The position numbers were made by a program, and so were the translations under genes. The notes below the pieces were generated by a model. That model saw only the letters and a program-made list of their open reading frames with translations. It was not told the origin of the DNA and ran no database searches. Positions 208 to 23,451 of a stretch of 33,288 nt of DNA are shown here, one piece after another. The stretch is from assembly GCA_013150915.1 (NCBI GenBank), contig JAADJE010000012.1, positions 91,820-125,107 on the forward strand, read 5' to 3'. How positions within the stretch are numbered: the first letter of the stretch is position 1; the number at the start of each line of letters is the position of its first letter. This stretch comes from Gammaproteobacteria bacterium (GTDB lineage: Bacteria; Pseudomonadota; Gammaproteobacteria; BMS3Bbin11).

Positions 208-957
208 ATGAGTCCGAGAACATTCAACTGGTTTAAATATTCTTCACCGACTACTTTTTACCCGCTGGCAGGAAAGCTTGTACCCTGGTTTTCAACCCTT
301 GCCGTAATCCTTATTTTTATTGCCCTGTATATAGGCTTCTATGTTGCACCTACGGATTACAAGCAGGGCGAGGGCTACAGAATTATTTTTGTCCATGTGC
401 CAGCATCCTGGATGTCAATGTTCATCTATCTGGTGATGGCCTTCTGGGCCATATTAGGGGTGATTTTTAATACACGTGTTTCAGGCATGATGGTACAGGC
501 ACTGGCACCTACCGGTGCTATGTTTACCTTTTTAGCGTTGTGGACGGGGGCTTTCTGGGGAAAGCCAATGTGGGGAACCTGGTGGGTTTGGGATGCGCGG
601 CTGACCTCGGAATTGATTCTGTTTTTCCTTTATATTGGCTATATTGCGCTACATTCATCGATTGATGATAAGCGGCGGGCAGATCGAGCAACCGCCATTC
701 TGATACTGGTTGGGGTTGTTAATATTCCGATAATTTATTATTCGGTAGAGTGGTGGAATACCCTGCATCAGGGTGCTTCAATTAGTGTGAAATCCGGTTC
801 GAGTATGGCATCTACCATGCTAATCGCTATACTGATTATGACCCTGGGTTTTTGGGCTTATAGCATTGCTGTGGCGCTGGCAAGAGTGCGCTCAGTCATC
901 CTCGAACGTGAACGGGATACTCACTGGGTAAGTGAATTAGCTGAGATAAAACGATGA
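208..957 (+). CDS. ccmC: CcmC, heme-handling membrane protein of cytochrome c maturation
   Basis: This 249-aa polytopic membrane protein loads heme onto the chaperone CcmE. The tryptophan-rich periplasmic heme-binding loop (WWD domain) is visible around residues 122-133 (GTWWVWDARLT). The two flanking histidines expected as axial heme ligands are His63 (in HVPASW) and His187 (in WWNTLHQG). Six or so hydrophobic helices span the chain and the length is normal for CcmC. The ATG at 208 starts a full-length family match. The stop overlaps the ccmD start as ATGA, so the two are translationally coupled. About 65 bases separate it from ccmB. Confidence 0.97.
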   Translation: MSPRTFNWFKYSSPTTFYPLAGKLVPWFSTLAVILIFIALYIGFYVAPTDYKQGEGYRIIFVHVPASWMSMFIYLVMAFWAILGVIFNTRVSGMMVQALAPTGAMFTFLALWTGAFWGKPMWGTWWVWDARLTSELILFFLYIGYIALHSSIDDKRRADRATAILILVGVVNIPIIYYSVEWWNTLHQGASISVKSGSSMASTMLIAILIMTLGFWAYSIAVALARVRSVILERERDTHWVSELAEIKR

Positions 958-1157
958 AAGAATTTCTTAACATGGGTGGTTATGCTCTGTATGTATGGGG
1001 CGCGTTTGGTATGACAGCATTACTGATGCTGGCAGAACCGCTTCTTGTCCGCAGCCGACGAAAAGTCACGCTGCGGCAGGTTTCAAGCCTCGTCCGCAGC
1101 AAGACAGTGCAACGGTCAATAAAACCATCAACAAATACATCGGGCGACCTCAAATGA
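954..1157 (+). CDS. ccmD: CcmD, small membrane subunit of the heme release complex
   Basis: This 67-aa protein has one hydrophobic helix (about residues 9-28, GGYALYVWGAFGMTALLML) followed by a basic cytoplasmic tail. That is the usual CcmD plan, including the conserved YVW segment at the start of the helix. CcmD stabilises the CcmABC-CcmE complex and is needed to release holo-CcmE. Both ends overlap neighbours by four bases (ATGA with ccmC and with ccmE). A longer reading in another frame from 995 covers the same DNA but is only an upstream extension of ccmE. Confidence 0.93.
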   Translation: MKEFLNMGGYALYVWGAFGMTALLMLAEPLLVRSRRKVTLRQVSSLVRSKTVQRSIKPSTNTSGDLK

Positions 1158-1618
1158 AAGCCAGGAAAAAAAGATTGATATTTATATTTGTGGGCCTCGT
1201 CTTCCTTGGGCTTGCCTCCTGGCTAGTTTTCAATGCCCTGGGGAATAACATGTCCTATTTCTACTCTCCCACTGAGGTAGTCCAGAAAAAAGCGCCTGAA
1301 GATCATCTGTTCAGGTTGGGAGGCATGGTAGTAGAAGGGAGTCTACAGCGTGGTCAGGCGCTTACGGTGCGCTTTGCCATAACGGATACCGCGAATGCCG
1401 TCAATGTCGAGTACACGGGAATTCTGCCCGATCTGTTTGATGAAGGGCAGGGTGTTATCGCACAGGGGAAACTCAATACTGCGGGTATTTTTGTTGCCAC
1501 TGAGGTGCTTGCCAAGCATGACGAGAAATATATGCCACCTGAAGTCGCGGATGCGTTAGAAAAGGCCGGCAAAATGAAGACTGATGTACCGGCTACGGAG
1601 TTGCAAAATGATTCCTGA
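1154..1618 (+). CDS. ccmE: CcmE, periplasmic heme chaperone
   Basis: This 154-aa protein has an N-terminal membrane anchor (about residues 8-27) and a periplasmic OB-fold domain. The heme-attachment histidine is His122 in the conserved VLAKHDEKY segment, with the tyrosine ligand four residues later. It takes heme from CcmC and hands it to CcmF/CcmH. I chose the ATG at 1154, which overlaps the ccmD stop as ATGA. The frame is open further upstream to 995, but that stretch has no family character and lies inside ccmD. The 3' end overlaps ccmF by 11 bases. Confidence 0.96.
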   Translation: MKARKKRLIFIFVGLVFLGLASWLVFNALGNNMSYFYSPTEVVQKKAPEDHLFRLGGMVVEGSLQRGQALTVRFAITDTANAVNVEYTGILPDLFDEGQGVIAQGKLNTAGIFVATEVLAKHDEKYMPPEVADALEKAGKMKTDVPATELQNDS

Positions 1619-3572
1619 AATTGGGCAGTTTGCACTTATCCTTGGGCTGGTGTTTGCACTGGTACAGACGACTTTACCGCTCGCCGGGGCACATTTCGGT
1701 ATTGCCAGCTGGGTGGCCGTAGCAAAACCAGCCGCCCGGGCACAATTATTGTTTGTCGCCATTTCTTTTGCCGCATTGACCTGGAGTTTCCTGACCCATG
1801 ACTTCTCAGTCAAATATGTTGCGGTGAATTCCAATACACAATTGCCTACCCTGTATCTGTTTTCAGCCGTATGGGGTGCTCATGAGGGCTCATTGGTACT
1901 CTGGGCGTTGGTACTTTCCCTTTGGACAGCCTCTGTCAGTCTGTTCAGCCGCAGTATTCCACCAAAGGTGCTGGCCCGGGTCCTGGGGGTAATGGGTTTT
2001 GTCAGTGTCGGTTTTATTCTTTTCATTCTGGTAACCTCCAATCCTTTCGAAAGGTTGGTGCCGGCGGCTATTGAAGGCCGTGATCTGAATCCCCTGCTGC
2101 AGGATATTGGACTGATTCTTCATCCGCCTCTCTTATACATGGGCTATGTCGGCTTCGTTGTCCCATTTTCATTCGCCATAGCGGCCATGTTAGGTGGACG
2201 GCTTGATGCCGCATGGGCACGCTGGTCGCGTCCCTGGACCCATGTTGCCTGGGTTTTCCTTACTCTCGGCATTCTGCTGGGTTCATGGTGGGCCTACTAT
2301 GAACTGGGCTGGGGGGGCTGGTGGTTCTGGGATCCAGTAGAGAATTCCTCCTTTATACCGTGGCTGGTTGGCACGGCACTGATGCACTCACTTGCGGTGA
2401 CGGAAAAACGTGGAACCTTCAAGGCATGGACGGTGTTGCTGGCAATCTTCACTTTTTCACTTAGTCTACTCGGAACCTTTCTGGTTCGATCCGGTGTTCT
2501 GACATCGGTGCATGCCTTTGCTTCTGATCCTGCACGGGGTGCATTTATTCTCGTTTTTCTCGCTGTGGTCGTAGGCGGTTCACTTTTAATCTATTCGTGG
2601 CGCGCCTCGCAAATACGAAGTCATGTTCATTTCGATATTCTATCGCGCGAGACAGGGCTTTTGTTGAACAATGTTTTTCTTGCGGTTGCGGCAACTAGCA
2701 TACTACTTGGTACCCTTTATCCATTAATTGTTGATGCCTTAGGTATAGGTAAGATTTCAGTTGGCCCACCCTATTTCAACAGTGTATTTCTTCCTTTGAT
2801 GGTCCCCCTGGCAATCTTGCTCGGTGTTGGTCCGCTGTTGCGCTGGAAGCGTGATTCGTTCCATCGTGTATGGACAAAGGTCTGGCCAATCGGCGCCCTT
2901 AGTCTGGTCATTGGGGGGCTGTTTCCATTGTTGGTAATGGATTTCTATGACGTCCGGGCAGCCTTTGGCATGATACTGGCGGTATGGGTGCTGGGCGTTA
3001 CTCTGAGAGTGCTTTTTGAGCAGGCCAGGGGGCGTGGTTTTATCTCAGTTTCACGTTCGTTCTGGGGCATGACACTCGGTCATATCGGTATTGCAGTGTT
3101 CATTATGGGCATTACGCTGACTTCAATCTACAGCACTGAAAAGGATATTCAGCTTGCGCCAGGTGAAAGTTACGACTTGGCTGGTTACACGTTTCGATTC
3201 GACGGTGTAACAAAGATCACCGGTGAAAATTACGGTGGATCAGAAGGCAAGCTGACCATAACAAAAAAAGGTGTATACATCACAACCATGAAACCGGAAA
3301 AGCGTAAATATCGGGTTCAGAAACAGCCATTGACCGAAGCGGCGATTGACGCAGGCCTGTTTCGAGACCTGTTTGCTGCCCTTGGCGAACCATTGGGTAA
3401 CAAAGGTGCCTGGAGCTTACGTGTCTACCACAAACCATTTCTTCGCTGGATTTGGCTGGGCGCTCTGATCATGACTCTGGGTGGGTTGTTTTCCGCCAGT
3501 GACCGGCGCTACAGAAAGTTGGCAGGTCGGAAAAAAAAGCAACGTGCAGTGGTAACTGAGGCGGTATCGTGA
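1608..3572 (+). CDS. ccmF: CcmF, cytochrome c heme lyase subunit
   Basis: This 654-aa multi-spanning membrane protein is the catalytic core that ligates heme to CXXCH motifs of apocytochromes. The WWD heme-binding motif lies around residues 236-246 (GGWWFWDPVEN) and is followed by the usual hydrophobic helices. The soluble periplasmic domain near residues 510-620 and a final C-terminal helix are present. The ATG at 1608 gives the typical CcmF N-terminus (MIPEIGQFALILGL); the frame can be read from 1584 but those eight codons lie within ccmE. The gene overlaps ccmG by four bases (GTGA). Confidence 0.98.
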   Translation: MIPEIGQFALILGLVFALVQTTLPLAGAHFGIASWVAVAKPAARAQLLFVAISFAALTWSFLTHDFSVKYVAVNSNTQLPTLYLFSAVWGAHEGSLVLWALVLSLWTASVSLFSRSIPPKVLARVLGVMGFVSVGFILFILVTSNPFERLVPAAIEGRDLNPLLQDIGLILHPPLLYMGYVGFVVPFSFAIAAMLGGRLDAAWARWSRPWTHVAWVFLTLGILLGSWWAYYELGWGGWWFWDPVENSSFIPWLVGTALMHSLAVTEKRGTFKAWTVLLAIFTFSLSLLGTFLVRSGVLTSVHAFASDPARGAFILVFLAVVVGGSLLIYSWRASQIRSHVHFDILSRETGLLLNNVFLAVAATSILLGTLYPLIVDALGIGKISVGPPYFNSVFLPLMVPLAILLGVGPLLRWKRDSFHRVWTKVWPIGALSLVIGGLFPLLVMDFYDVRAAFGMILAVWVLGVTLRVLFEQARGRGFISVSRSFWGMTLGHIGIAVFIMGITLTSIYSTEKDIQLAPGESYDLAGYTFRFDGVTKITGENYGGSEGKLTITKKGVYITTMKPEKRKYRVQKQPLTEAAIDAGLFRDLFAALGEPLGNKGAWSLRVYHKPFLRWIWLGALIMTLGGLFSASDRRYRKLAGRKKKQRAVVTEAVS

Positions 3573-4102
3573 AACGCTATCTTATCCCCTTTGCAATATT
3601 TGTTGTTCTGGTTATTTTTCTGGCCATTGGTCTGAAGCTGGATCCGAGTTATATCCCCTCGCCCTTTATTGGTAAGCCAGCACCCGAATTTGATTTGCCC
3701 GATTTGCATAATCCCAATCAACGGCTCAAGACTTCAGATTTGAAAGGCCAGGTGTGGGTACTGAATGTCTGGGCCTCCTGGTGCACAGCCTGTCGTGCTG
3801 AGCACCCAGTAATTCAACGTCTGGTCTCTCTGAATATTGCTCCAGTATACGGTTTGAACTACAAGGATAAACCAGAAGATGCCAAGAAATGGTTGCAGGA
3901 ACTGGGTGATCCTTACAAAGCTAATCTGGTGGACAGGACCGGTGATGTGGGTATTGACTGGGGCGTTTATGGCGTACCGGAAACCTTTGTCATCGATAAA
4001 AAGGGGCTTATCCGTTACAAGTATATAGGCCCACTAAGCAATGGGGTTGTCGATGCTGAGATTGTACCTCTATTGCGAAAATTAAACGCGGAGGCGGATT
4101 AG
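3569..4102 (+). CDS. ccmG: CcmG/DsbE, thiol-disulfide reductant of the Ccm system
   Basis: This 177-aa membrane-anchored thioredoxin-fold protein has an N-terminal helix at about residues 5-21. The active site is WCTAC (Cys72, Cys75) followed by RAEHP, where the acidic glutamate is typical of CcmG. The cis-proline loop is GVPETFVID. It keeps apocytochrome or CcmH cysteines reduced in the periplasm so that heme can be attached. The dipeptide between the cysteines (TA) differs from the PT of the E. coli protein, but the surroundings are clearly CcmG. It starts with GTG and overlaps the ccmF stop. Confidence 0.96.
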   Translation: MKRYLIPFAIFVVLVIFLAIGLKLDPSYIPSPFIGKPAPEFDLPDLHNPNQRLKTSDLKGQVWVLNVWASWCTACRAEHPVIQRLVSLNIAPVYGLNYKDKPEDAKKWLQELGDPYKANLVDRTGDVGIDWGVYGVPETFVIDKKGLIRYKYIGPLSNGVVDAEIVPLLRKLNAEAD

Positions 4103-4104
4103 GA

Positions 4105-4566
4105 ATGCGGATAAAGAAAGGGTTTATTCCCATTGTTTTGACGTTGCTTGTAGTTTCAGTGTCATCGCAGGCCGTTATTGATGTCTACCAGTTTGATGAT
4201 CCGGAAAAGGAGGCCCTGTACAAGAAATTAACCGGGGAATTGCGTTGCACTGTCTGTCAGAATCAGCCTATCAGTGATTCCAATGCTGATTTGGCCAAGG
4301 ATCTGCGCCGGAAAACCTACGAAATGATTACTGCGGGAAAAGATGAAGAGTTTGTGCTGAATTTTATGACACAGCGCTTTGGTGATTTTATTCTCTTTCG
4401 ACCGCCTTTTCAGAGCAATACCTTAGTTCTCTGGATTGGCCCATTTATCATATTGATTGTTGCTGTGTTTTTTCTGATCAAGTTTATACGCCGGTCTACG
4501 GATGATATTCCCTTAACGGACACGGACAGGGCTCAGGCAGAACAATTACTGGAGCGAGACAAATAA
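4105..4566 (+). CDS. ccmH: CcmH, apocytochrome thiol oxidoreductase (CcmL-type)
   Basis: This 153-aa protein has a signal-like N-terminal helix, a periplasmic three-helix domain and a C-terminal transmembrane helix near residues 110-132. The redox motif is LRCTVCQNQ (Cys48, Cys51), close to the family LRCxVCQNQ signature. With CcmG it reduces or presents the apocytochrome cysteines to the CcmF heme lyase. The family length is usual, with no fused TPR domain; that part is the separate gene ccmI downstream. Its TAA overlaps the ccmI ATG by one base (TAATG). Confidence 0.96.
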   Translation: MRIKKGFIPIVLTLLVVSVSSQAVIDVYQFDDPEKEALYKKLTGELRCTVCQNQPISDSNADLAKDLRRKTYEMITAGKDEEFVLNFMTQRFGDFILFRPPFQSNTLVLWIGPFIILIVAVFFLIKFIRRSTDDIPLTDTDRAQAEQLLERDK

Positions 4567-5822
4567 TGTCATTCTGGATTTTATCGACAATTATGGTGGC
4601 TGCTGGCCTTTTATTACTTACTCCGGCACTGCTTAATAGAAAAACCGTGAAGATGGATGATGATCGTGAACAAAATATCACTATCGCCAGAGAGCGGATA
4701 CAGGAATTGAAGGCCGAGCTAGAGGCCGGAACCCTATCAGAGGAGACTTACCAACAGACACTGGAAGAGCTAGAAAAAAGCCTGCTCATTGATGTTGCCG
4801 ATGTAGAAGTTTTGTCGGAAAAGATGTCTGATAAATCTTCCTGGAAGATGTTGGTTGCAGTGGCTGTCATTGTGCCAGTATTGAGTTTTGGCATGTATGA
4901 CATGCTGGGTTCTCCACAATATCTAGATGTTGTCGGACCGGGGAAACACCAAGAAACTCCTCCCGGCCTCACTACTTCCAGGGCAGGAAAATTGCCTTCA
5001 ATGGAGGAAATGATCGCAGGTCTCAAAAAGAAAACAGCTGAGGATCCGAATAATCCGGATGGCTGGTATCTGCTTGGACGTTTATATGCGGCCAAGGAGC
5101 AGTTTCCTGATTCTGTTAAGGCTTATGAAAAACTGGTCGAGGTCACTGACCGTCTACCCACTGCTCTGGTCGTGCTGGCAGATTCAATTGCCATGACCCA
5201 GGGGGGTAGCTTGTCAGGACGTCCTCTACAGTTATTAACGGAAGCCCTCGAAAAGGAGCCATCAAATTCTACAGCCTTGTGGATGGCAGGGCAGGCGGCA
5301 GCCGATAAGAAACAATATATTGAGGCCATTGATTACTGGCAGCGTGCAGCCCTGGGTTTAAAAGAGCACAAAGAGATGTTGGGTGAATTGAACTCAATGA
5401 TTAACGAAGCAGTTGTTTTGGCTAAAGAGGCTGGCATGAATGTCGCTGAGATTAACCTGCCTGAACCTCCCCTAGTTGCTTCAATTCCCATTGATATCAT
5501 TGTTGATCCTTCCTTGCAGGATAAGATTCAGGAAAATGATGTTCTGTTTATATTTGCCAGAGCAGTTTCAGGCCCTCCAATGCCGTTGGCTGCGATTAAG
5601 CGCCAGGCCAGCGGATTCCCACTGACCATCGTGCTAAATGATTCGTCTTTACTGCGTCCCGATATCAGCCTGCTGGATTATAATCAATTAAGCATTACTG
5701 CACGGATTTCGCACAGTGGGCAGCCTGCCGCGCAGGGCGGTGATCTGCAGAGTCAGACTCAGCTGGTTAGCCCCACATCAAATTCCAAGATTATTCTGAA
5801 GATTGATAAACTACTGCCCTGA
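4566..5822 (+). CDS. ccmI: CcmI (CycH), TPR apocytochrome c chaperone
   Basis: This 418-aa protein has two N-terminal transmembrane helices (about residues 3-23 and 93-113) that flank a cytoplasmic coiled segment with the ARERIQELKAELEAGTLSEE motif typical of CcmI. A periplasmic TPR region follows (about residues 150-290, including PDGWYLLGRLY), then a C-terminal beta-rich domain. CcmI binds the C-terminal helix of apocytochromes c and delivers them to CcmF/CcmH. It is the last gene of the ccm cluster and overlaps ccmH by one base. A gap of more than 300 bases follows. Confidence 0.95.
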   Translation: MSFWILSTIMVAAGLLLLTPALLNRKTVKMDDDREQNITIARERIQELKAELEAGTLSEETYQQTLEELEKSLLIDVADVEVLSEKMSDKSSWKMLVAVAVIVPVLSFGMYDMLGSPQYLDVVGPGKHQETPPGLTTSRAGKLPSMEEMIAGLKKKTAEDPNNPDGWYLLGRLYAAKEQFPDSVKAYEKLVEVTDRLPTALVVLADSIAMTQGGSLSGRPLQLLTEALEKEPSNSTALWMAGQAAADKKQYIEAIDYWQRAALGLKEHKEMLGELNSMINEAVVLAKEAGMNVAEINLPEPPLVASIPIDIIVDPSLQDKIQENDVLFIFARAVSGPPMPLAAIKRQASGFPLTIVLNDSSLLRPDISLLDYNQLSITARISHSGQPAAQGGDLQSQTQLVSPTSNSKIILKIDKLLP

Positions 5823-6154: not shown

Positions 6155-7039
6155 ATGAGCGACAACAATAAACTTTACCGGTTGGTCTTTACAGGCAATT
6201 TATTGCCGGGAAATTCCAGAAAAAAAGTTATCTCTCGTTTGCAGCAGATGTTGCACCTGGACAAGGAGAAAGCTTCACGTCTCGTTGCTGGAAAGCACAA
6301 ACAGATCAATAAGAAGCTGACACTGGACAGAGCAGAGAAACTTAGGCTACTCATTCTGAAACAGGGTGCTGAATGTGTATTGTTGCCTATAGAAGAATCA
6401 TTTGTATCTACGCAGCAGTTACCCATGTTTATTCGCAATGGGGATAGCCGTATTCGGCAGAATAACTCTTCTCGTCATAATCAAAGTACAGGAAAGGCTG
6501 CTGTCCAGAGTGCAGCCAGACAAGCTGGTCCAGAGGAATCAATTAGTCGCATTAGAAAACGTTCGATGCCACTGAGTAAAAGTACACAATTGAAATATTT
6601 GTTCTATGCCATCTTTTTTATGATCATTGAAGCTATTGTGGTCTGGAACATTAAACCTGTGCCACAAACATGTGATTGTTCTAATAGTCAGGAAAATATA
6701 TTATCTTCTACAGATGTAAATAAAATTTCCACCGTCGTACGGCAGAAGGTTAGAGTGAAACAGCTGTCACCCGCTGCGACAGAAACAATGGAAAAACTGA
6801 GAAATATTTCTGTCCGGACAAGTTTATGGTTCGCCGACCAGGATAGAGAAATTAGCCCCGCCGATGTTAGCTGGATATGGATACAGGGTGACATTGGAAT
6901 CAGTGTACGCGAAATGAATGATAGCTGGGGGAATGCAATCAGGTATTTTGGTAAAGAGGATCGCTTTGAGTTGCGCTCGTCTGGGCCAGACAAAATATTT
7001 TATACTGGTGATGACATTTTCAGGGAATTACTTATCTAA
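6155..7039 (+). CDS. Unnamed membrane protein with shared N-domain and GspG-like C-terminus
   Basis: I do not recognise this 294-aa protein as a named family. Residues 8-78 (from YRLVFTGNLLPG to GAECVLLP) are paralogous to the start of the next gene. Then come a low-complexity basic linker (about 95-145), one transmembrane helix (about 148-167) and an extracytoplasmic part. The final 45 residues (DSWGNAIRYF, SSGPDKIFYTGDDI) resemble the C-terminal calcium-binding loop of GspG type II secretion pseudopilins, where a WGN turn and a GxD segment recur. No prepilin cleavage motif is visible, so it is not a normal pseudopilin. The ATG at 6155 has only a weak ribosome binding site. Confidence 0.75.
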   Translation: MSDNNKLYRLVFTGNLLPGNSRKKVISRLQQMLHLDKEKASRLVAGKHKQINKKLTLDRAEKLRLLILKQGAECVLLPIEESFVSTQQLPMFIRNGDSRIRQNNSSRHNQSTGKAAVQSAARQAGPEESISRIRKRSMPLSKSTQLKYLFYAIFFMIIEAIVVWNIKPVPQTCDCSNSQENILSSTDVNKISTVVRQKVRVKQLSPAATETMEKLRNISVRTSLWFADQDREISPADVSWIWIQGDIGISVREMNDSWGNAIRYFGKEDRFELRSSGPDKIFYTGDDIFRELLI

Positions 7040-7092
7040 ATGAACGCTAATTGATCCTGATATGTTCAGGTGAAATCTAAAAGGCACTATAA

Positions 7093-8007
7093 ATGACTAT
7101 GCCCATACTTGATGATGATCAACAATATCGTCTTGTTTTCCCCGGAAATATCCTTCCGGGTTCGGACCACGATGAAGTGGTTTTTGATCTGGCACGTCTT
7201 TTGAAAACATCGCCTGACAGGGCGATAAAACTGGTTTCCGGAAAAAGGAGACACGTAAAACGCACGTTTGTTTATAAAAAAGCAGACCAGTTACGGGTAC
7301 AGGTTCTTCAATTAGGGGTGGAATGTGAACTGGAGCCGGTTGGTGGTAGCACCCGCTCTTCTAAAACTAAAAAAAATAAGCGTAAAAAACCTTTTCCAAA
7401 GCCTGAAAACCTTGCCATGCAGCCCGTAACATCAAACCAGACATCCGATCAGGAAAAGTCCTACAGCGAAACAATGGCTGAGTTTCAGAAGCATGCCAGC
7501 GCCAACAGGGCACGAAAAAAGATGGAAACAGGGCTTGATGACGTTGCGTTATCTTTCGATACTGAGGGGAGCCAGCATGAGAAAAGTGCTTCCCTCAAAA
7601 GTATTAGGCGTCGACTAGCTCAGTTTGTCGGTGAAAATATCGATAATTATCTACCAATATTCGATAGGTTTCAGCAGGATAAGAACCCGCATTTTGTTTT
7701 TACATGGCATTGGCCAGCCTTTTTTGTGCCTTTTTTCTGGGCAATTTATAGAAAGCTTTGGGGTTGGTCTGTAGTCATATTCATCAGTACAATATTTTCG
7801 CCACTGACAAATATACTCTGGGGAACGGTTGCTAATTATATTTACTACCGGCATAGCATCCAGAAAATCAAATCAATACGGCAGCGGTATCACTCCGGTA
7901 AGATTGATGAAAAATTGTCAGAAGAAGGGGGTACCAGTACGCTGGCTTTGTCGGTGGTACTGCTTATAATTTTGTTGCTGGTGAACGGTGTGTACTGGAT
8001 GCGTTAA
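7093..8007 (+). CDS. Paralogous N-domain protein with a DUF2628-like membrane C-terminus
   Basis: This 304-aa protein shares its N-terminal region (residues about 12-82, YRLVFPGNILPG to GVECELEP) with the preceding gene. A charged lysine-rich linker follows. The C-terminal third contains a tryptophan/phenylalanine-rich membrane segment (HFVFTWHWPAFFVPFFWAIY, about 196-215) with two or three further helices, resembling DUF2628-type small membrane domains. The function is unknown. It lies 53 bases after its paralogue and is probably co-transcribed. The shared front half attached to different membrane parts suggests a sensing or adaptor domain used twice, which is an inference. Confidence 0.75.
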   Translation: MTMPILDDDQQYRLVFPGNILPGSDHDEVVFDLARLLKTSPDRAIKLVSGKRRHVKRTFVYKKADQLRVQVLQLGVECELEPVGGSTRSSKTKKNKRKKPFPKPENLAMQPVTSNQTSDQEKSYSETMAEFQKHASANRARKKMETGLDDVALSFDTEGSQHEKSASLKSIRRRLAQFVGENIDNYLPIFDRFQQDKNPHFVFTWHWPAFFVPFFWAIYRKLWGWSVVIFISTIFSPLTNILWGTVANYIYYRHSIQKIKSIRQRYHSGKIDEKLSEEGGTSTLALSVVLLIILLLVNGVYWMR

Positions 8008-8123: not shown

Positions 8124-8153
8124 TTGACAATCTAAATAAGAATAAGTATCATT
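8124..8153 (+). promoter_or_regulatory. Promoter with overlapping Fur-like box upstream of the FTR1 gene
   Basis: TTGACA at 8124-8129 and TATCAT at 8147-8152 are separated by 17 bases, a good sigma-70 pair. The stretch AATAAGAATAAGTATCATT (8135-8153) overlaps the spacer and -10. It matches about 15 of 19 positions of the repeated GATAAT-type Fur pattern when aligned to AATGATAATCATTATCATT. Iron-dependent repression of the iron permease that starts at 8189 fits. The Fur assignment is an inference from sequence likeness and context. Confidence 0.55.
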
Positions 8154-8188: not shown

Positions 8189-10096
8189 ATGAAACCCTAT
8201 TTTCTACTGCTTTGTACGTTGTTATTACCGATAACTGCAAATGCTTCAACTGATATTCAGCAGTTGTTACAACTCGTAGATTATATTGGTGTCGATTACT
8301 CAGGCGCTGTAAATGATGGTCAGATTACCCATGCCGGGGAATATGACGAAATGAGAGATTTTTCTAAAGCCATATTCGAGCAATCACAGTCATTAGCTGC
8401 CTCTGCACGAAAAGCTGAAATTGTAGAATTGTCGCGCCAGCTGATCACACAGGTAAAGGGAAAAGGGGAAGCGGTTGATATTAACAGGATAGCGGCTGCT
8501 ATCCGCAGCAATGTGATTGCTTCTTATGATGTTGCCGTTATCCCGGGACAAGCGCCCGATTTGCAGAGAGCGAAGCAGTTATATGTTGAGCAGTGCAGTA
8601 GTTGCCATGGAGATCGTGGTATGGGAGATGGCCCTGCAGCAATCAATATGGATCCACCACCTGTCGTTTTTACCGACTACAATCGTTATCGGGAACGAAC
8701 AGTATATGGCCTCTTTAATACGATAACTCAGGGTGTTGCCGGTACGCAGATGAAGGCCTACCCACAGCTAAATGATATCGATCGCTGGGGCCTGGCTTTT
8801 TTAACCAGTGCTATGGCTCAGACTGGTGAGTCAGTAAAGCAGGGGGGGGCCGTGTATGACAGGGATGGAATACGTCAGATTCCACTGGATCTGCTTAAGC
8901 TAACCACGACCACACCCGCACAAAGTGAAAAAAGTTACGGTATCGAAGGCCTGGCTTTAATGGCCTTTTTGCGTAGTCGACCGGATGTGTTATTTAGTCG
9001 TGGGAATGCAGCCTTGCTGACTTTCGCAAAAGAGGAAATGTCAGACAGTCTCGATGCCTATCAGAAGAATAAACCGAAGCTGGCATACAAATTAGCCGTG
9101 AAAGCTTATCTAGAAGGTTTTGAACTCATTGAAAATGGTCTCAATACCATTGATCCCGAACTTCGTGTGTCAATAGAAAAATCAATGACGGCCTATCGAA
9201 ACCTGATTCGTGACGGCCTGCCAGCAGCTGAACTTGAGGTAGAAACACACCGTATCCAGGCATTACTGCAAACGGCTGCAGATAAACTCGATAGAACTCG
9301 CCTCAGTGGTGGCGCTGCATATGCCAGTGCCATGGTTATACTGTTGCGCGAAGGCCTCGAAGCGCTGCTGGTTATTGCTGCACTTGCGGCATTTCTGATC
9401 AGGATTGATCGACGGGATGCATTAAAATGGTTGTATGGGGGTGTTTTTGTGGCACTGCTTCTGGGTGCGGTTACGTGGTGGGCATCGACATATGTAATAG
9501 ATATTTCCGGTATGCAGCGCGAAATAACAGAGGGTCTCGCTGCTCTGCTGGCTGCGGCTGTACTCTTTTACGTTGGTTTCTGGCTGCACAGTAAAACCGG
9601 TGCCACACAGTGGAAAGAATTTATCGAGAACAACATTCAAAAGGCGCTCGGTAAGAGTACACTTTGGGGCCTTAGCGGACTGGCATTTATTGCCGTCTAC
9701 CGTGAGATACTGGAAACAGTTCTGTTTTATCAGGCATTATGGATTCAAACTGAAAAGTCCGGCCAGCACATGATTTTTACCGGTTTCCTTGTTGCCTCTG
9801 CCATTCTGGCGGTAGTCACATGGATTATCCTGCGCTATTCTGCCCGTCTGCCGTTACGACAATTTTTTGCTGTTAGCAGTATTTTCATGTTTCTGATGGC
9901 AATTGTCTTTGCTGGGAAGGGAATAGCTGCTCTGCAGGAAGCAGGGGAACTGGGAATGAATCCTGTTAGTTTTCCAACCGTAGATTTATTAGGAATCTAT
10001 CCTAATATTCAGGGTCTGCTGGTACAATTAGCGTTGCTGATTGTTGCAATACTCATGTGGCTAAGGTCGAATAGGGCTAGCACTCAGGTAAGTTAG
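8189..10096 (+). CDS. FTR1-family iron permease fused to a cytochrome c domain
   Basis: This 635-aa protein has a signal peptide (residues 1-20), a periplasmic part with one c-type heme motif (CSSCH, residues 136-140, followed by GDRGMGDGPAA), a helical linker, and a C-terminal seven-helix FTR1 permease domain. Two REXXE iron-binding motifs characteristic of Ftr1/EfeU are present: REGLE at 387-391 and REILE at 505-509. Known relatives import iron, with oxidation or electron transfer on the outer side. The fused heme domain could carry electrons from iron being oxidised or reduced during uptake (inference). The promoter just upstream carries a Fur-like box. The ATG at 8189 has a weak ribosome binding site but gives a clean signal peptide. 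Confidence 0.93.
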   Translation: MKPYFLLLCTLLLPITANASTDIQQLLQLVDYIGVDYSGAVNDGQITHAGEYDEMRDFSKAIFEQSQSLAASARKAEIVELSRQLITQVKGKGEAVDINRIAAAIRSNVIASYDVAVIPGQAPDLQRAKQLYVEQCSSCHGDRGMGDGPAAINMDPPPVVFTDYNRYRERTVYGLFNTITQGVAGTQMKAYPQLNDIDRWGLAFLTSAMAQTGESVKQGGAVYDRDGIRQIPLDLLKLTTTTPAQSEKSYGIEGLALMAFLRSRPDVLFSRGNAALLTFAKEEMSDSLDAYQKNKPKLAYKLAVKAYLEGFELIENGLNTIDPELRVSIEKSMTAYRNLIRDGLPAAELEVETHRIQALLQTAADKLDRTRLSGGAAYASAMVILLREGLEALLVIAALAAFLIRIDRRDALKWLYGGVFVALLLGAVTWWASTYVIDISGMQREITEGLAALLAAAVLFYVGFWLHSKTGATQWKEFIENNIQKALGKSTLWGLSGLAFIAVYREILETVLFYQALWIQTEKSGQHMIFTGFLVASAILAVVTWIILRYSARLPLRQFFAVSSIFMFLMAIVFAGKGIAALQEAGELGMNPVSFPTVDLLGIYPNIQGLLVQLALLIVAILMWLRSNRASTQVS

Positions 10097-10161: not shown

Positions 10162-10551
10162 ATGTATGCTTTTTCAACCACTACCAGTAAATCCTATGAT
10201 GAGGCAGTAGCCGATGTCACAGAGGCTTTAAAGGAACAGGGCTTCGGGGTGCTGACTGAAATTGACGTCAGTGCCGTTCTAAAAAAGAAACTGGATATCG
10301 ATAAACGTCCGTATATTATTCTCGGTGCCTGTAACCCGGTACTGGCTAATCAAGCGATGGAAGCTGAACCCGATATTGGACTTTTATTGCCCTGTAACGT
10401 TGTTGTCAGGGAGGAAGAAGATGGCAGTATTACCGTTGCGTTTATGGATCCATCCGCTATTCTTGCACTGGTCGATAACCCCGTTATTCCCGCACTGGCA
10501 GCTGAGGTGCGCAGCCGGTTGAAAAAAGTTTGTGATGCTATAGCACCCTGA
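10162..10551 (+). CDS. DUF302 domain protein
   Basis: This 129-aa soluble protein belongs to the DUF302 family, recognised by the YDEAVADVTEALKEQGFGVL opening, the GACNP segment and the LLPCNVVV strand. The two cysteines in GACNP and LLPCN are in the positions usual for the group. The biochemical role is unknown; these proteins often lie beside cytochromes or redox genes. A strong AAGGAG sits upstream of the ATG. It lies between two cytochrome c fusion genes, probably in the same transcription unit as the FTR1 gene 65 bases upstream. Confidence 0.88.
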   Translation: MYAFSTTTSKSYDEAVADVTEALKEQGFGVLTEIDVSAVLKKKLDIDKRPYIILGACNPVLANQAMEAEPDIGLLLPCNVVVREEEDGSITVAFMDPSAILALVDNPVIPALAAEVRSRLKKVCDAIAP

Positions 10552-10597
10552 CACCACACTCTGATTTGGACCTCTATCTGTACACTTGGGTTCGTTT

Positions 10598-11734
10598 ATG
10601 ATCCAGAAAGCTTTATTACTGTTTATTTATGGGTATTTGCTTGTTCCCAATCTGTCCTATGCGGCGGCAAGATGGTACTCAGATGACCAGGTAACTAAGG
10701 GCGCGAGCTTATATGCCAGTTACTGTGCTGGATGCCACAAGGCAAACGCAGAGGGAACCAAAAACTGGCGCAAAACAGGCAGCAATGGTAAATATCCACC
10801 ACCGCCACTTAATGGCACAGCACATGCCTGGCACCATTCGATAAAAGTTTTGGGCAGTACTATCCGGAATGGAGGCATTAAGCTTGGTGGTACCATGCCC
10901 GCATTTAAAGATAAACTTGATGCCGGACAGACACTGGATGTCATCGCCTTTTTCCAGTCCAAATGGAACGATAAAGCTTATTCAGCATGGCTGAAACGAA
11001 ACCCGATCCCTCAACAGGAGAAAGTATCTGTTAGAAGGAACGTTGCCGGTAAAAATAAGACCGGAGATCCTCGCACAGTCAACCTGCAAAAACTTTTACC
11101 CGGTAGAACCATCAGTACACCCGAAAAAACACCTGTAAATGGAATTTACCGGGTAAGGATAGGAAATAAATTTGCCTATGTTACGGAAGACGGAGAGTAT
11201 GCCCTGGTGGGTAATCTCCTGGATCTAAAGAATGGTATCAATCTTACTCAGCAGGCACAGGCCAGAGAAAATATTCCTCTACTGAGATCATTTCCCGAAA
11301 AAGAGTTAATTATTTTCAGGGCAGAAGGTAAAGAAAAGGCCACCATCAGTGTCTTTTCTGATACCAGTTGCCCCTTTTGCAAGAAATTTCACAGGGAAGT
11401 TCCACAATTACAGAAAGCCGGTGTGAGTGTGCGCTATATACCCTTTCCCAGAGGGCTAGATAAAGGTCCGGGATATAAAGATATGTTATCGGTTTGGTGT
11501 TCGGCGGATCGAAATAGGGCAATAAATATCGCAATGGGTATTAGCAAGGGTAAGCTAGAAAATAGAAACTGCGGTGCTGACAAGGTTCTTCGAGCAGGTT
11601 TTGAGTTAGGTAAGCGGCTTGGTGTGCAAGGAACACCAACCCTGTATTTACCCGATGGATCTTCGATACGCGGGTACGTGACGGCACAAAAAATTATTGA
11701 GAGCCTCACCCGAAAGAAAATTATACGGCAATAG
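10598..11734 (+). CDS. Cytochrome c-DsbC fusion, periplasmic disulfide isomerase-like
   Basis: This 378-aa exported protein has two parts. After a signal peptide (residues 1-23) comes a monoheme cytochrome c domain with CAGCH at 43-47 and a likely axial methionine near Met100 (GGTMPAF). Residues about 160-378 match DsbC/DsbG: the N-terminal dimerisation segment (GIYRVRIGNKFAYVTEDGEY), the thioredoxin-like active site CPFC (258-261), the second cysteine pair seen in DsbC (Cys301, Cys325), and the cis-proline loop GTPT (345-348). It would isomerise or reduce disulfides with electrons possibly exchanged through heme (inference). I chose the ATG at 10598, which starts the signal peptide, over an in-frame TTG at 10586. 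Confidence 0.9.
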   Translation: MIQKALLLFIYGYLLVPNLSYAAARWYSDDQVTKGASLYASYCAGCHKANAEGTKNWRKTGSNGKYPPPPLNGTAHAWHHSIKVLGSTIRNGGIKLGGTMPAFKDKLDAGQTLDVIAFFQSKWNDKAYSAWLKRNPIPQQEKVSVRRNVAGKNKTGDPRTVNLQKLLPGRTISTPEKTPVNGIYRVRIGNKFAYVTEDGEYALVGNLLDLKNGINLTQQAQARENIPLLRSFPEKELIIFRAEGKEKATISVFSDTSCPFCKKFHREVPQLQKAGVSVRYIPFPRGLDKGPGYKDMLSVWCSADRNRAINIAMGISKGKLENRNCGADKVLRAGFELGKRLGVQGTPTLYLPDGSSIRGYVTAQKIIESLTRKKIIRQ

Positions 11735-11784: not shown

Positions 11785-12558
11785 TTGTTAAATAACCTTA
11801 AACGCTGGTATCGATCTACGGTGCTGCGCGATACACGTATCCCATTTCAGCTCTGGCAACAGAGTACCCGCATGCTTTCTTTGTTTAATCGGCTCAATAC
11901 CAGGCAACTTACCCGTTTACGTAAGCTGACTGGACTTTTCCTGCATGAAAAACAGTTTACTGCAGCCGCAGGGATGGCGCTGTCAGACAAGATGAGAGTG
12001 CAGATTGCTGCCCAGGCCTGCCTGCTGATTCTAAACAGAAATCTTAGCGATTTTGATGGTTGGTATGAAATTATTGTGTACCCCGATGCCTTTATTGTTG
12101 AATATGAACACGTTGATGAAGCCGGTGTATTGCACAGTTCAGAACGAACATTGGGTGGTGAGGCGTGGGGGAAAGGGCCGGTCATCCTTTCATGGGCAGA
12201 TGCGGATCCGGAAGGGCAAGGCGCACGTCATTTTGGATCCAATGTTGTGCTGCATGAATTTGCCCATAAACTGGATATGCTAAACGGTGTTGCAAATGGA
12301 ATGCCGGTATTAAATAAAGATATGAAGAGAGAGGACTGGACCCGTATATTTAGCTGTGCATATGAACGTTTGCTCAGAGAGCTGGAACACGGATATCATG
12401 TTTCTATTGATCCTTACGCTGCCCAAAGTCCCGCGGAGTTTTTTGCCGTGGTATCAGAATACTTCTTTATGGCACCCGAATTTTTACAAAAACATTACCC
12501 CGGTATATACCGGGAGGTGTCTTTGTACTACCGCCAGAACCCATTGAAACAGGTTTAA
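11785..12558 (+). CDS. mtfA: MtfA-family M90 zinc peptidase
   Basis: This 257-aa cytoplasmic protein of the MtfA family (peptidase M90) has the zinc motif HEFAH at residues 157-161, followed by KLDMLNG. The downstream acidic ligand region is AEFFAVVSEYFF. In E. coli MtfA binds the Mlc repressor and so affects glucose PTS control; its own substrate is not settled. The chain length matches the family. The only in-frame upstream start is a TTG at 11785, preceded closely by AAAGAAGG. An ATG at 11763 is in a different frame and stops after ten codons. A palindromic element lies just after the stop. Confidence 0.9.
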   Translation: MLNNLKRWYRSTVLRDTRIPFQLWQQSTRMLSLFNRLNTRQLTRLRKLTGLFLHEKQFTAAAGMALSDKMRVQIAAQACLLILNRNLSDFDGWYEIIVYPDAFIVEYEHVDEAGVLHSSERTLGGEAWGKGPVILSWADADPEGQGARHFGSNVVLHEFAHKLDMLNGVANGMPVLNKDMKREDWTRIFSCAYERLLRELEHGYHVSIDPYAAQSPAEFFAVVSEYFFMAPEFLQKHYPGIYREVSLYYRQNPLKQV

Positions 12559-13825: not shown

Positions 13826-14488
13826 TTACTGTTCTTCCACGGGCATACCAGCGTGTTTCCATTCTGGAAAACCCTCCTCCATCCTTCTTGCAGTTCTGCC
13901 GTGTTTTCTGAGCTCTGCTACGGCATCAAAGGCCAGTACGCAATGCGGTCCACGACAATAGGCTACTATTTCCTGTACAGTGTCCAGTTCATTAAGGCGC
14001 TTTTTTAATTCTGATAACGGAACATTGATGGCGCCGGGGACATGGCCAGCGTTGAACTCCTCTGTTGGTCTAACGTCAATGACTGTTACCAGGCCATTAT
14101 TCACACGATCTAATAGCTCTTCGCGGGCAATGGGTTCAAGGTTGTCCTTTATTGTCAGGTAACTATCAACCAATTTACCCACATCAGCAAGCTCTCTTTC
14201 CGCAACCCGGCGAAGCGAGCTAAGGAGGTCTACGACATCGTCGCTGCTGAGCCTGTAAAAGACTTTAAGTCCCTCCTTCCGAGAGGTCACTAACCCAGAC
14301 TGTCGGAGTTGTTGTAAATGTTGTGAGGTATTTGCCACAGAGAGACCAGATACTCTGGCCAGCTCATCTACACTACGTTCTCCCTGCGCAAGGAACTCGA
14401 GCAACTCGAGACGATTGCCGTTGGCCAGTGCTTTACCTACACGGGCAAACTGACTAAATAGATTCTGCTTAAAGTTTCCGCTTGACAT
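13826..14488 (-). CDS. ArsR-family regulator fused to a rhodanese domain
   Basis: This 220-aa protein has an N-terminal winged helix of the ArsR type (about residues 15-95; recognition helix near SVANTSQHLQQLRQSGLV) and a C-terminal rhodanese domain (about 122-218). The rhodanese active loop is CRGPHC (Cys178, Cys183). The DNA-binding part has no cysteine at all, so the classic ArsR metal site and the BigR/SqrR dithiol are absent. Any thiol or persulfide sensing must lie in the rhodanese part (inference). I chose the ATG at 14488, which gives MSSGNFKQNLF; the frame is open 23 codons further but these lie in the divergent promoter region. It diverges from the arsenic-island genes. Confidence 0.92.
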   Translation of the reverse strand: MSSGNFKQNLFSQFARVGKALANGNRLELLEFLAQGERSVDELARVSGLSVANTSQHLQQLRQSGLVTSRKEGLKVFYRLSSDDVVDLLSSLRRVAERELADVGKLVDSYLTIKDNLEPIAREELLDRVNNGLVTVIDVRPTEEFNAGHVPGAINVPLSELKKRLNELDTVQEIVAYCRGPHCVLAFDAVAELRKHGRTARRMEEGFPEWKHAGMPVEEQ

Positions 14489-14524
14489 ATTATTAAATGC
14501 CTGTATCCTTTTCAAGTAGTTAAT

Positions 14525-14562
14525 TGAATAGTAGACTATAACGGGTATTATAGCCACTATTG
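14525..14562. promoter_or_regulatory. Divergent regulatory region with nested inverted repeats
   Basis: A dyad CTATAA at 14537-14542 and TTATAG at 14549-14554 (6-base gap) is flanked by a second pair, AATAGT at 14528-14533 and ACTATT at 14557-14562, off by one base in spacing. A plus-strand promoter candidate, TTGAAT at 14525-14530 and TATTAT at 14547-14552 (16-base spacer), lies across it. It sits between the ArsR-rhodanese gene and the desaturase gene, the place expected for an operator used by that regulator. The binding claim is an inference. Confidence 0.55.
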
Positions 14563-17329: not shown

Positions 17330-18538
17330 ATGAAAAAAAAGTCTGTCATCATCATCGCATTAGTCATTGTTATAATTGGTTTTTTTACGTGGCGTTTTAT
17401 TCGTCCGATGGAAATATTTGTCGTTGATGATCGGTTTGCCTATCCTGTTGATACATCCGAGGTGCCGCCTGTACTGGGTGACCTGAGTGCAGAGACCTGT
17501 GGCTCGTGCCATACAGAATTTTATCGGGAATGGCGTACGACAATACACAGTAAGGCTTTCACCGATCCTTATTTTCAGGCTGACTGGAAGTTTGAAGATA
17601 AACGAGATAGTTGCCGACTGTGTCACACGCCACTCGATCGTCAGCAACCGCAGACAGTTCTGGGTTACCGGGATGCATCTAAATGGGATCCAGTGCTTGA
17701 GGAAAATCCAAATTTTGATTCCAAACTTCAACACGAGGGTGTGACCTGCGCCGCCTGTCACTACCGTGAGGGGAAAATAGTGGGTGTACTCGACAATGTT
17801 AATGCACCGCATCCGGTAAAGAAGCTGGAGAATGCGAATGAAGTCTGCGTTCGCTGTCATGTGGTCGATGGCAAGCGCTGGGATACCTTTTACCGCTTTC
17901 CTCCCTGCGGCACGGTTGCTGAAATTCAATCATCAAAAGGTACTGTAAAAAGATCAGGCGAAACAGTCGTACAGGATATTGCATCGCTGGGCTGTGTAGA
18001 CTGCCACATGCCGGCAATTAAGCGACCACTGGTTGAGGGTGGTGTGGTGCGTAATGCGCGACAGCATCTGTGGCGAGGTGGGCACGATCCGGAAATGGTC
18101 AAGAAGGCCTTTACGGCGGATCTGTTTGAAGTAGCATTAACAAAGAAGAATAAAAGAAAATTCACCTTTGAAATCACGAATACAGGAACCCGCCACTATC
18201 TGCCTACAGGTACACCTGATCGCTATCTATCAGTCAATATGAAACTGCTTGATTCACAGGGAAAAGTTCTAAAAGAACAGTATCATAAACTGATACGGAA
18301 AATGATGTGGCGGCCGTTTATTATTGACCTGGCTGATACACGCCTTCCTTACGGTAAGCCGCGTCAGTACTCCATGGAATATTCAACGGGTGAATTTAAC
18401 AATGCCGCTGCCATAGAGGTGAAAGTGCGCTATCACCTGGTCAATGAGAAAAGGCTTAAGCGAATAAACTATCAAAGTAAGGAACCTATTGATTATGAAG
18501 TGTTCTCAAAGCGTATCGATCTTTCAGAAGCCGAATGA
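17330..18538 (+). CDS. Membrane-anchored pentaheme cytochrome c
   Basis: This 402-aa protein has one N-terminal helix (about residues 5-23) that anchors it facing the periplasm. Five CXXCH heme motifs are visible: CGSCH at 57, CRLCH at 95, CAACH at 140, CVRCH at 173 and CVDCH at 222. The heme part resembles the cytochrome c554-type multiheme family. Residues about 260-400 form a heme-free, beta-rich domain (FTFEITNTGTRHYLPTGTPD). AAGGAG precedes the ATG. The next gene, a mercuric-reductase-like flavoprotein, starts 10 bases after its stop. It probably moves electrons between the quinone pool and periplasmic partners; the substrate is not known. Maturation would need the Ccm proteins. Confidence 0.92.
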   Translation: MKKKSVIIIALVIVIIGFFTWRFIRPMEIFVVDDRFAYPVDTSEVPPVLGDLSAETCGSCHTEFYREWRTTIHSKAFTDPYFQADWKFEDKRDSCRLCHTPLDRQQPQTVLGYRDASKWDPVLEENPNFDSKLQHEGVTCAACHYREGKIVGVLDNVNAPHPVKKLENANEVCVRCHVVDGKRWDTFYRFPPCGTVAEIQSSKGTVKRSGETVVQDIASLGCVDCHMPAIKRPLVEGGVVRNARQHLWRGGHDPEMVKKAFTADLFEVALTKKNKRKFTFEITNTGTRHYLPTGTPDRYLSVNMKLLDSQGKVLKEQYHKLIRKMMWRPFIIDLADTRLPYGKPRQYSMEYSTGEFNNAAAIEVKVRYHLVNEKRLKRINYQSKEPIDYEVFSKRIDLSEAE

Positions 18539-20015: not shown

Positions 20016-20975
20016 ATGCTAGCAACTTTACCATTACTTGAAGAAACTGATTTTCCTGCCATCCGCCGAGGTAAGCTGGAAATTTTACAAGTTAACATTG
20101 GCTACCTTTGTAACCAGAGTTGTTTGCACTGCCATGTCGATGCCGGTCCGAATCGAAAGGAGCAGATGGATCGGCAAACGGTTGATGATCTGATCGGTTT
20201 CTTGAAGAAAACAGATATTCGGATACTTGATATTACCGGTGGCTCACCAGAGATAAATGAACACTTCCGTTATCTGGTGACGGTTGCCAGAAAGCATGGG
20301 GTACATGTTATTGATCGTTGTAACCTGTCTATACTGAATGAACCTGGGCAGGAAGATCTTGCTGAATTTCTTGCCTCACAAGAGGTTGAAATTGTTGCTT
20401 CTATGCCCTGTTACCTTAAGGATAATGTTGATGCACAACGCGGTAAAGGTGTTTACCGATCCAGTATCGCAGGCTTACACAAACTCAATGCGCTTGGATA
20501 TGGAAAACCCGGCACAGGTTTGACGCTGAATCTGATGTATAACCCGCAGGGCCCGTCACTGCCGCCTGCTCAAGACATACTGGAAGCAGATTACAAACGC
20601 GAATTACAGCAGCGGGAGCGCGTGGAATTTAATAGTCTCTTTGTTTTAGTCAATATGCCCATCAAACGTTTCGGTAGCATGTTGATATCGAAGGGTCAGT
20701 TCAGTGAGTATATGCAGCTGCTTAAAGATAACTATGAAGCATCAAACCTGAAGAGCGTTATGTGTTGTACGCTGATCAGCGTGGACTGGCAGGGCTATGT
20801 TTATGATTGTGATTTTAATCAGATGCTGGAACTTCCGTTGTACATTCAGGGTCGAACAAGGACTCACATAAACCAGATCAGTGTTGATGACTTGAAGGGA
20901 AACCCCATTGTCATTGGGGATCATTGTTATGGTTGTACGGCTGGTCAGGGTTGTAGTTGTAGCGGGGCCTTGTAA
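20016..20975 (+). CDS. arsS: ArsS, radical SAM arsenosugar biosynthesis protein
   Basis: This 319-aa radical SAM protein has CX3CX2C at Cys32, Cys36 and Cys39 (CNQSCLHC), which binds the 4Fe-4S cluster and S-adenosylmethionine. The SPASM-like C-terminal segment (CYGCTAGQGCSCSGAL, residues 304-319) carries the extra cysteines of the ArsS family. In known systems ArsS works after ArsM and forms the 5'-deoxyadenosyl dimethylarsine intermediate on the way to arsenosugars. It lies upstream of two glycosyltransferases and arsM, which supports the assignment. ATG at 20016; 42 bases from the flavoprotein. Confidence 0.95.
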   Translation: MLATLPLLEETDFPAIRRGKLEILQVNIGYLCNQSCLHCHVDAGPNRKEQMDRQTVDDLIGFLKKTDIRILDITGGSPEINEHFRYLVTVARKHGVHVIDRCNLSILNEPGQEDLAEFLASQEVEIVASMPCYLKDNVDAQRGKGVYRSSIAGLHKLNALGYGKPGTGLTLNLMYNPQGPSLPPAQDILEADYKRELQQRERVEFNSLFVLVNMPIKRFGSMLISKGQFSEYMQLLKDNYEASNLKSVMCCTLISVDWQGYVYDCDFNQMLELPLYIQGRTRTHINQISVDDLKGNPIVIGDHCYGCTAGQGCSCSGAL

Positions 20976-21055
20976 CGGCAGTAAAAGACTTGAGACTAAG
21001 GACTAAGAATTATTATAAGGGTTATGATTCGGGGAGTCTATAATGAAGGTCAAAG

Positions 21056-21730
21056 ATGAAAATTTCTATTATCATACCTGCGCGTAATGAAGCGGAGAAT
21101 ATAGGCAGTTTGTTGCAGTCATTGCAGATGTTTCGTAAAAATGGCCACGAGCTAATTTTGGTTGACGGTTACAGTGAGGACAAAACAGCCAGTATTGCCG
21201 ATCCCCTGGTCGACAAACTGATTAAAACACCGGCCAGCCGAGCCCTGCAAATGAATGTGGGTGCTGGTGAAGCGACAGGGGATGTACTGTGGTTTCTCCA
21301 TGCTGACAGTATCGTCCCGAAGCAGGCGGATAGGTTGATCATCAATGCGGTAACGATGAAGACCTTTACCTGGGGTCGATTTGATATCCGTTTAAGTGGC
21401 CGACAGTACCTCTTCCGTCTAGTGGAAGCGAGTATGAATCTACGGTCACGGTTGACCGGTATCGCAACGGGTGATCAGGGTGTTTTTGTGAGCCGTGGAT
21501 TATTCTACAAGGCCGGTGGTTTTCCAGAGCAGTGCCTGATGGAAGATGTCGCCCTGAGCAAACACCTGAAGAAATATCAGGCTCCGATTTGCTTGCACGA
21601 AAAGCTGGAGACTTCAAGCCGAAGATGGGAACAGCGCGGCATCATCCGCACTATTTTATTGATGTGGCGACTTCGTTTGGCTTATTTTCTTGGTGTCCCC
21701 GTGGACAAACTGGCATTACACTATGATTGA
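21056..21730 (+). CDS. Family 2 glycosyltransferase of the arsenosugar cluster type
   Basis: This 224-aa GT2-fold protein has the N-terminal SIIIPARNEAENIGSLL, an acidic DXD-like site in FLHADS, and an ED motif (LMEDVALSKHLK). It matches the TIGR04283 group, named for co-occurrence with arsenosugar genes. It is expected to transfer or build the sugar part of arsenosugars or a linked glycolipid; the exact donor and acceptor are not shown by sequence. The end contains a short amphipathic helix (LRLAYFLGVPVDKLALHY). It abuts the next gene by overlap of possible starts. Confidence 0.9.
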   Translation: MKISIIIPARNEAENIGSLLQSLQMFRKNGHELILVDGYSEDKTASIADPLVDKLIKTPASRALQMNVGAGEATGDVLWFLHADSIVPKQADRLIINAVTMKTFTWGRFDIRLSGRQYLFRLVEASMNLRSRLTGIATGDQGVFVSRGLFYKAGGFPEQCLMEDVALSKHLKKYQAPICLHEKLETSSRRWEQRGIIRTILLMWRLRLAYFLGVPVDKLALHYD

Positions 21731-21738
21731 TCAGAGTA

Positions 21739-22374: not shown

Positions 22375-22407
22375 TGCAATTAAATAAATGTTATTTCGGA
22401 GGATATT

Positions 22408-23214: not shown

Positions 23215-23451
23215 CCCCCTATTTTCTGTATTTCTAATATCTTTCTATGTATTAAGCCGTAATACATGGAAGGATAATACTAATAGTCATTAGAAGGGAT
23301 CAAACAAAGGAGAAAAAGAAAAAGGCGACAGCGTGTTATCGGGGTGTTTACCCAGTGTGTTAACGTTTGGTTGGGTGACAACAGTGCCTGTGCCCACAAC
23401 GACAATTATAATTATAATATGCAGACATACAGGGTTCGGGTCACAACGCGC

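Follow-up and report, generated by a model that had tools for sequence, protein, structure and literature searches.

A conserved cytochrome c–DsbC fusion family in gammaproteobacteria, possibly serving disulfide repair under copper stress

The joining of a cytochrome c to a DsbC-type disulfide isomerase in one protein chain is real, conserved and apparently undescribed, and of the new insights that we can offer on the family that carries it, a copper-stress setting is the best supported. Whether the fusion is a periplasmic DsbC-type isomerase for stress by copper (or a similar metal), with a class I cytochrome c as a tethered domain, seems to us an evenly balanced proposition. It is the best explanation that we have, based on the domains themselves, the enrichment of copper genes among the neighbours and the literature linking copper to DsbC and ScsC, and at the level of sequence it builds on an export signal, on a heme site and DsbC catalytic and dimerisation elements that are all intact, and on selection on both halves. 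Throughout, the window means the whole stretch of gammaproteobacterial DNA that was analysed, 33,288 nucleotides in length.

The reading frame that encodes the fusion runs from an ATG at 10598 to a stop codon ending at 11734, with a TTG at 10586 as a possible alternative start, and its 378-residue product is laid out as a signal peptide, a class I cytochrome c, a variable linker, DsbC_N and the DsbC thioredoxin domain (Table 1). The heme domain is recognised by two Pfam models above their curated cut-offs, Cytochrome_CBB3 (PF13442, 6.4e-10, residues 31–118) and Cytochrom_C (PF00034, 3.1e-06), and the class I assignment reflects a CXXCH near the N-terminus of that domain and a Met ligand near its C-terminus. 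Sequence matches to solved DsbC structures are strong (4npb, 1.6e-29; 1eej, 3.4e-27) and align over residues 173–371, and in an alignment of 32 fusions the residues C43, C46, H47, M100, C258, C261, C301, C325, T346 and P347 are all 100% conserved. The original prediction of a single exported chain, in which a CAGCH heme domain precedes a DsbC complete with dimerisation segment, CPFC, second cysteine pair and cis-Pro loop, is thus borne out by the reading frame, the signal peptide, the Pfam matches and these invariant Cys, Thr and Pro positions. Between the halves, the linker varies from 11 to 25 residues across the family and has a conservation of 0.50, against 0.71 and 0.66, and being both short and poorly conserved it suggests a flexible tether. 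An AlphaFold model, built on an alignment of just four sequences for that reason, reached a pLDDT of 54 and gave a confident prediction for the DsbC catalytic part alone, and none for the heme domain. Heme maturation on the fusion appears possible, given the ccm genes in the window.

Table 1. Features of the fusion gene and its surroundings, in window positions
Feature	Position	Strand	Evidence
ccmC, E, F, G, H and cycH, upstream	208..5822	+	ORFs; Pfam for 4566-5819; synteny
Sigma-70-like promoter, TTGACA-17-TATCAT, before the FTR1 gene; 11/12 matches	8124..8152	+	Consensus scan only; shuffles give more promoter matches than the region
FTR1-family iron permease with N-terminal cytochrome c domain; likely same transcription unit as the fusion	8189..10096	+	Pfam FTR1 2.4e-34, Cytochrome_CBB3
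DUF302 protein, directly upstream of the fusion	10162..10551	+	PF03625 4.7e-27
Cytochrome c–DsbC fusion gene, 378 aa	10598..11734	+	ORF, translation, Pfam, full-length orthologues
Sec signal peptide, about residues 1-22 (MIQKALLLFIYGYLLVPNLSYA)	10598..10663	+	Direct sequence reading
Class I cytochrome c domain, residues 23-136	10664..11005	+	Pfam Cytochrome_CBB3/Cytochrom_C
Heme attachment motif C-A-G-C-H, residues 43-47	10724..10738	+	C43, C46, H47 invariant in 32 fusions
M100, probable distal heme ligand (GGTMPAF)	10895..10897	+	Invariant in 32 fusions
Variable linker, heme domain to DsbC_N	11006..11080	+	Least conserved part, raised dN/dS
DsbC_N dimerisation domain, residues 162-218	11081..11251	+	PF10411 E 6.8e-15, above curated cut-off
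DsbC catalytic thioredoxin domain, residues 242-368	11321..11701	+	PF13098 (Thioredoxin_2) E 1.1e-18, above curated cut-off; PDB DsbC matches
Active site C-P-F-C, residues 258-261	11369..11380	+	Both Cys invariant in 32 fusions
C301 to C325, second cysteine pair (by homology, the DsbC structural disulfide)	11498..11572	+	Cys invariant in 32 fusions; aligned to 1eej/4npb
T346-P347, cis-proline loop (GTPT)	11633..11638	+	Invariant in 32 fusions
MtfA-type peptidase M90, directly downstream; conserved neighbour in the genus	11785..12558	+	PF06167 2.2e-85, synteny

Full-length orthologues are present in the same genus (81% identity in G002 and 79% in G006), and purifying selection acts on the heme and DsbC halves alike, with within-genus dN/dS of 0.09–0.17 for the cytochrome domain, 0.16–0.30 for DsbC_N, 0.11–0.17 for the thioredoxin domain and 0.24–0.40 for the linker. 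Confinement to the genus is excluded by full-length members elsewhere: a class-wide sample of 369 genomes yielded them in G295 and G365, so that they are now known in the window's family and in two further gammaproteobacterial families, and within the family of G365 at least one full-length fusion, at roughly 40–46% identity, was found in 27 of 41 genomes. The heme domains of these more distant fusions are 44–64% identical to that of the window's fusion, and single-domain relatives 50–62%. No further full-length fusion turned up in a phylum sample of 398 genomes, and the distribution is therefore patchy. Plasmid spread was considered and rejected, as none of 72,556 plasmid records covered 80% of the query; scanning genome contigs with the fusion returned distant DsbC-like matches only, and viral sequences contributed a pair of distant DsbC-like proteins but nothing related to the heme domain. 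Long frames in G067, G367, G346, G320 and other genomes had also been candidates for additional fusions, and those that were read proved to be overlapping frames lacking a heme domain. As for novelty, the fusion protein falls short of the cut-off of every NCBIfam model, and NF008129, the DsbC equivalog model, scores 121 bits against a cut-off of 215, making this a member of the DsbC family and not, by that model, an equivalog. The original prediction knew of no described system with a direct electron path from heme to dithiol; for the cytochrome c–DsbC architecture, our literature search, in a collection with few subscription journals, found no account.

What links the family to copper is the company that its genes keep. 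Counting multicopper oxidase, CopB, Cu-ATPase and DUF411 as copper genes, one or more lies within 5 kb at 14 of 34 fusion loci as against 1 of 22 loci for unfused DsbC (Fisher p 0.002), and at 12 of 32 (p 0.008) once the two loci that supplied search seeds are removed, these p-values being optimistic in that related loci are treated as independent. Genes were labelled by BLAST against a small set of seeds, and Pfam confirmed the labels of representative proteins. At L095, for example, the order is Cu-ATPase, Met-rich protein, fusion, DUF411 and multicopper oxidase, together with a TolC-like protein and a MerR regulator; at L174 the fusion is accompanied by CopA, CopB, DUF411 and Cu-ATPase; and at L096 it adjoins a multicopper oxidase, and the locus also encodes a small cytochrome c and a Cys-rich exported protein. 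Indeed, the fusion recurs as a unit with these last two partners at about 15 loci. The genome of the window has, on another contig, a Pfam-confirmed cluster of Cu-ATPase, DUF411, small cytochrome and copA-copB, and its small cytochrome is 53% identical to the partner cytochrome of the fusion in L096. In addition, copA-copB, Cus or DUF411 clusters are home to several single-domain proteins akin to the heme domain, one of which is followed by DUF302. An HxWHH segment was considered as a copper-specific signature and rejected, since a 35% identical cytochrome at L213, outside copper loci, has HAWHH as well.

The Cys-rich exported proteins merit a description in their own right. Found at L147, L149, L152, L154–L157, L159–L163, L165, L168 and L096, they are mostly about 107–116 residues long, end in YRPPIA or PPIT, and are encoded just upstream of the small cytochrome c and usually also of the fusion. 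The one that was tested gave no Pfam match, and by eye only they resemble the CopL-like proteins encoded upstream of copA.

How might such a protein work? Two precedents from the literature are helpful here: a passage of PMC9040851, citing Hiniker et al. 2005, has an E. coli dsbC mutant as copper sensitive in air, and ScsC, an isomerase of copper resistance, has a subpicomolar affinity for Cu(I) (PMC8900818). In our proposal, the DsbC half would be kept reduced by DsbD and would reshuffle the wrong disulfides that copper makes, and its CXXC may, by analogy with ScsC, also bind Cu(I). More tentatively, the heme half could accept electrons one at a time from Cu(I) or its thiol-bound form, and might hand them to the small partner cytochrome, an oxidase or the respiratory chain, so that copper would be kept as the less toxic Cu(II). 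Such an explanation does not depend on two electrons being relayed directly between the heme and the dithiol. The most ambitious version, in which the CXXC captures Cu(I), the tethered heme draws off its one electron towards the respiratory chain and the disulfides made by copper are repaired by that same protein, we regard as unlikely. Counting against the copper reading in general are the window's own locus, which offers FTR1, DUF302 and ccm and no copper gene nearby, the 20 of 34 fusion loci with no copper gene within 5 kb, some of them on short contigs, and one orthologous group of fusions that precedes sdhCDAB and not copper genes.

The history of the family has been one of considerable domain traffic. 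In a tree of the DsbC domain, 35 fusions and four unfused proteins make up a single group with support 98, apart from 28 ordinary DsbC, and four changes between fused and unfused states are needed; an exclusive clade of all the fusions is rejected (AU p 8.6e-06), the four unfused proteins being nested among them. DsbC relatives without heme occur inside the fusion clade at L006, L007, L079 and L100, and in G003 and G004 the slot between DUF302 and mtfA is occupied by a heme-less DsbC that is about 60% identical to the fusion of the window. One early fusion with about three subsequent losses of the heme domain would fit this pattern, and a few independent gains would be a possible alternative history; the tree of the heme domain is too poorly resolved for dating the event. 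The converse variant, a heme domain and DsbC_N without any CXXC or thioredoxin domain, is represented by five proteins (L098, L175, L176, L179 and L181), and the suggestion that the protein of G160 C130 is a truncated fusion is excluded by the presence of this same architecture in five genomes. There is even a tandem form, consisting of a cytochrome, two DsbC_N and one thioredoxin domain (L173:6866-8245, 460 aa; L174:5273-6697, 475 aa). Since DsbC proteins without heme and heme–DsbC_N proteins without CXXC both exist, the two activities are separable, neither half needing the other, and the heme, DsbC_N and thioredoxin parts are evidently exchangeable modules. Behind the cytochrome–DsbC_N gene at L098, sequence reading suggests two transporter-like genes that resemble DUF1538, together with one PII-like and one CBS-domain-like gene.

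This modularity bears directly on what the heme domain is for. The gain and loss of domains, including the proteins with one or two DsbC_N just described, and the variable linker would both suit a heme domain that is mainly a localisation or docking module, bringing DsbC to a respiratory or metal-detoxification partner and playing no redox role towards the dithiol. We nevertheless consider this rather unlikely, because mere docking would require neither the heme ligands that are invariant in 32 fusions nor the strong purifying selection on the heme domain.

Beyond the architecture, the original prediction suggested that electrons might pass straight between heme and dithiol, and this second part is still hypothetical. 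The idea is that the heme and the CPFC dithiol swap electrons, allowing the respiratory chain to oxidise (or, against expected potentials, to reduce) the isomerase without DsbB or DsbD, and it draws strength from a covalent fusion kept across three families with all its redox residues invariant, and from a tether short enough to hold both centres in the same particle. Class I cytochromes c with His/Met ligation usually have potentials of about +0.2 to +0.35 V and DsbC one of about -0.13 V, so that electrons should flow in one direction alone, out of the dithiol and into the heme, and DsbC would be oxidised instead of the isomerase being fed; moreover, a one-electron heme is poorly matched to a two-electron dithiol. 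The exchangeability of the modules weighs against an obligatory relay, as do the natural variants that lack one centre or the other, and the linker is poorly conserved. DsbD, the normal reductant of DsbC, is also retained in the genome of the window in its complete three-domain form (790 aa, with DsbD_N, transmembrane and thioredoxin domains). Taking all of this together, a direct path looks unlikely.

The window's own locus raises a further alternative. Its neighbours had been named as an FTR1–cytochrome fusion and a DUF302 protein, which Pfam confirms, and taken to point to periplasmic metal or heme redox work; of this, a periplasmic metal redox setting is likely. DUF302 holds its position in G002, G003, G004 and G006, while the FTR1–cytochrome gene is shared with G002 and is not a conserved neighbour, a different gene taking its place in G006 and none in G003. 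The ccm genes are likewise upstream in G002 and G003. In G000 and G002 it is the fusion gene that comes after the ccm operon, and in G003 the unfused version, in keeping with a cytochrome c maturation accessory that would act as isomerase or reductase on apocytochrome thiols. Such a job is quite unlikely, however, given that CcmG and CcmH are already encoded in ccm, that the two other families show no ccm link, and that a role on apocytochrome thiols would leave the enzyme's own heme domain unexplained. Finally, an artefact of sequencing or assembly, against which the original prediction had cautioned, or a decaying chance fusion of genes, has no point in its favour and can be dismissed with near certainty in view of the orthologues in genus mates, 32 full-length homologues in independent genomes and a dN/dS well below 1 in both halves.

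Elsewhere in the window there are several genes that we simply record. Two adjoining genes at 6155-8007, of which G003 has only the first, have similar N-terminal halves (LYRLVFTGNLLPG and QYRLVFPGNILPG) and apparently represent a duplicated uncharacterised domain. An exported protein with several CXXCH motifs, a multiheme cytochrome, is encoded at 17330-18538, outside the fusion locus. An ArsR-rhodanese-like regulator, a radical-SAM protein, glycosyltransferases, an ArsM-like methyltransferase and a MerR regulator occupy 13826-14557 and 20016-23868, and from the sequence this looks like an arsenic or arsenosugar cluster. DUF302, a neighbour of the fusion gene in the window (10162-10551), reappears in an unrelated family at L064:9457-9846, where it comes right after a cluster of copA, copB and a cytochrome gene, and the two settings hint that DUF302 might act in metal redox chemistry.

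Should the copper-stress reading be correct in its fullest form, the fusion would be a new periplasmic redox enzyme, a heme-based cuprous oxidase coupled to disulfide repair. DsbC is needed under copper stress, and this family brings periplasmic thiol repair and a respiratory electron carrier together in one chain; the natural variants lacking either half make the link between thiol repair and respiratory electron flow directly testable. Attention is also drawn to a cytochrome c family of copper-resistance operons that appears to be uncharacterised.

Among known systems, the closest is DsbC of the Escherichia coli type (PDB 1eej, 4npb), which has the same dimerisation domain, CXXC, second cysteine pair and cis-Pro as the fusion, but no N-terminal class I cytochrome c, and the DsbC half of the fusion falls outside the clade of sampled ordinary DsbC. 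An ordinary DsbC is encoded as well in the genome of the window, on another contig. ScsC is alike in function, on the proposed reading, as a periplasmic thioredoxin-fold isomerase for copper resistance with a DsbD-like reductant (PMC8900818, PMC5524982), whereas it contains neither DsbC_N nor heme and occurs as a trimer or monomer. The fusion does not qualify as a ScsC itself, its similarity to ScsC chains being weak (6nen, 9e-05; 6mhh, 2e-04) and its immediate neighbours (FTR1, DUF302 and mtfA) including no ScsB-type gene. The single-domain cytochromes c of copper operons, for which our literature search found no characterisation, belong to the same domain family as the heme domain and have the AHAWHH and GGxMPxF segments in common with it, but carry no DsbC part. 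The neighbouring FTR1–cytochrome c fusion also joins a cytochrome c domain to a metal-handling protein, the differences being that it is a membrane permease and no thiol enzyme, and that its cytochrome domain is a different one. The last comparison is with a DsbC-like protein of Candidatus Magnetominusculus (L033:9713-10501), in which DsbC_N and thioredoxin domains follow a possible heme motif, GCDTNCASCHK, much as in the fusion, although the motif occupies only a few residues, a cytochrome domain was not detected and identity is about 27%. With its CASCHK placed directly before DsbC_N, this protein would be a possible second, independent way of heme-tagging a DsbC.
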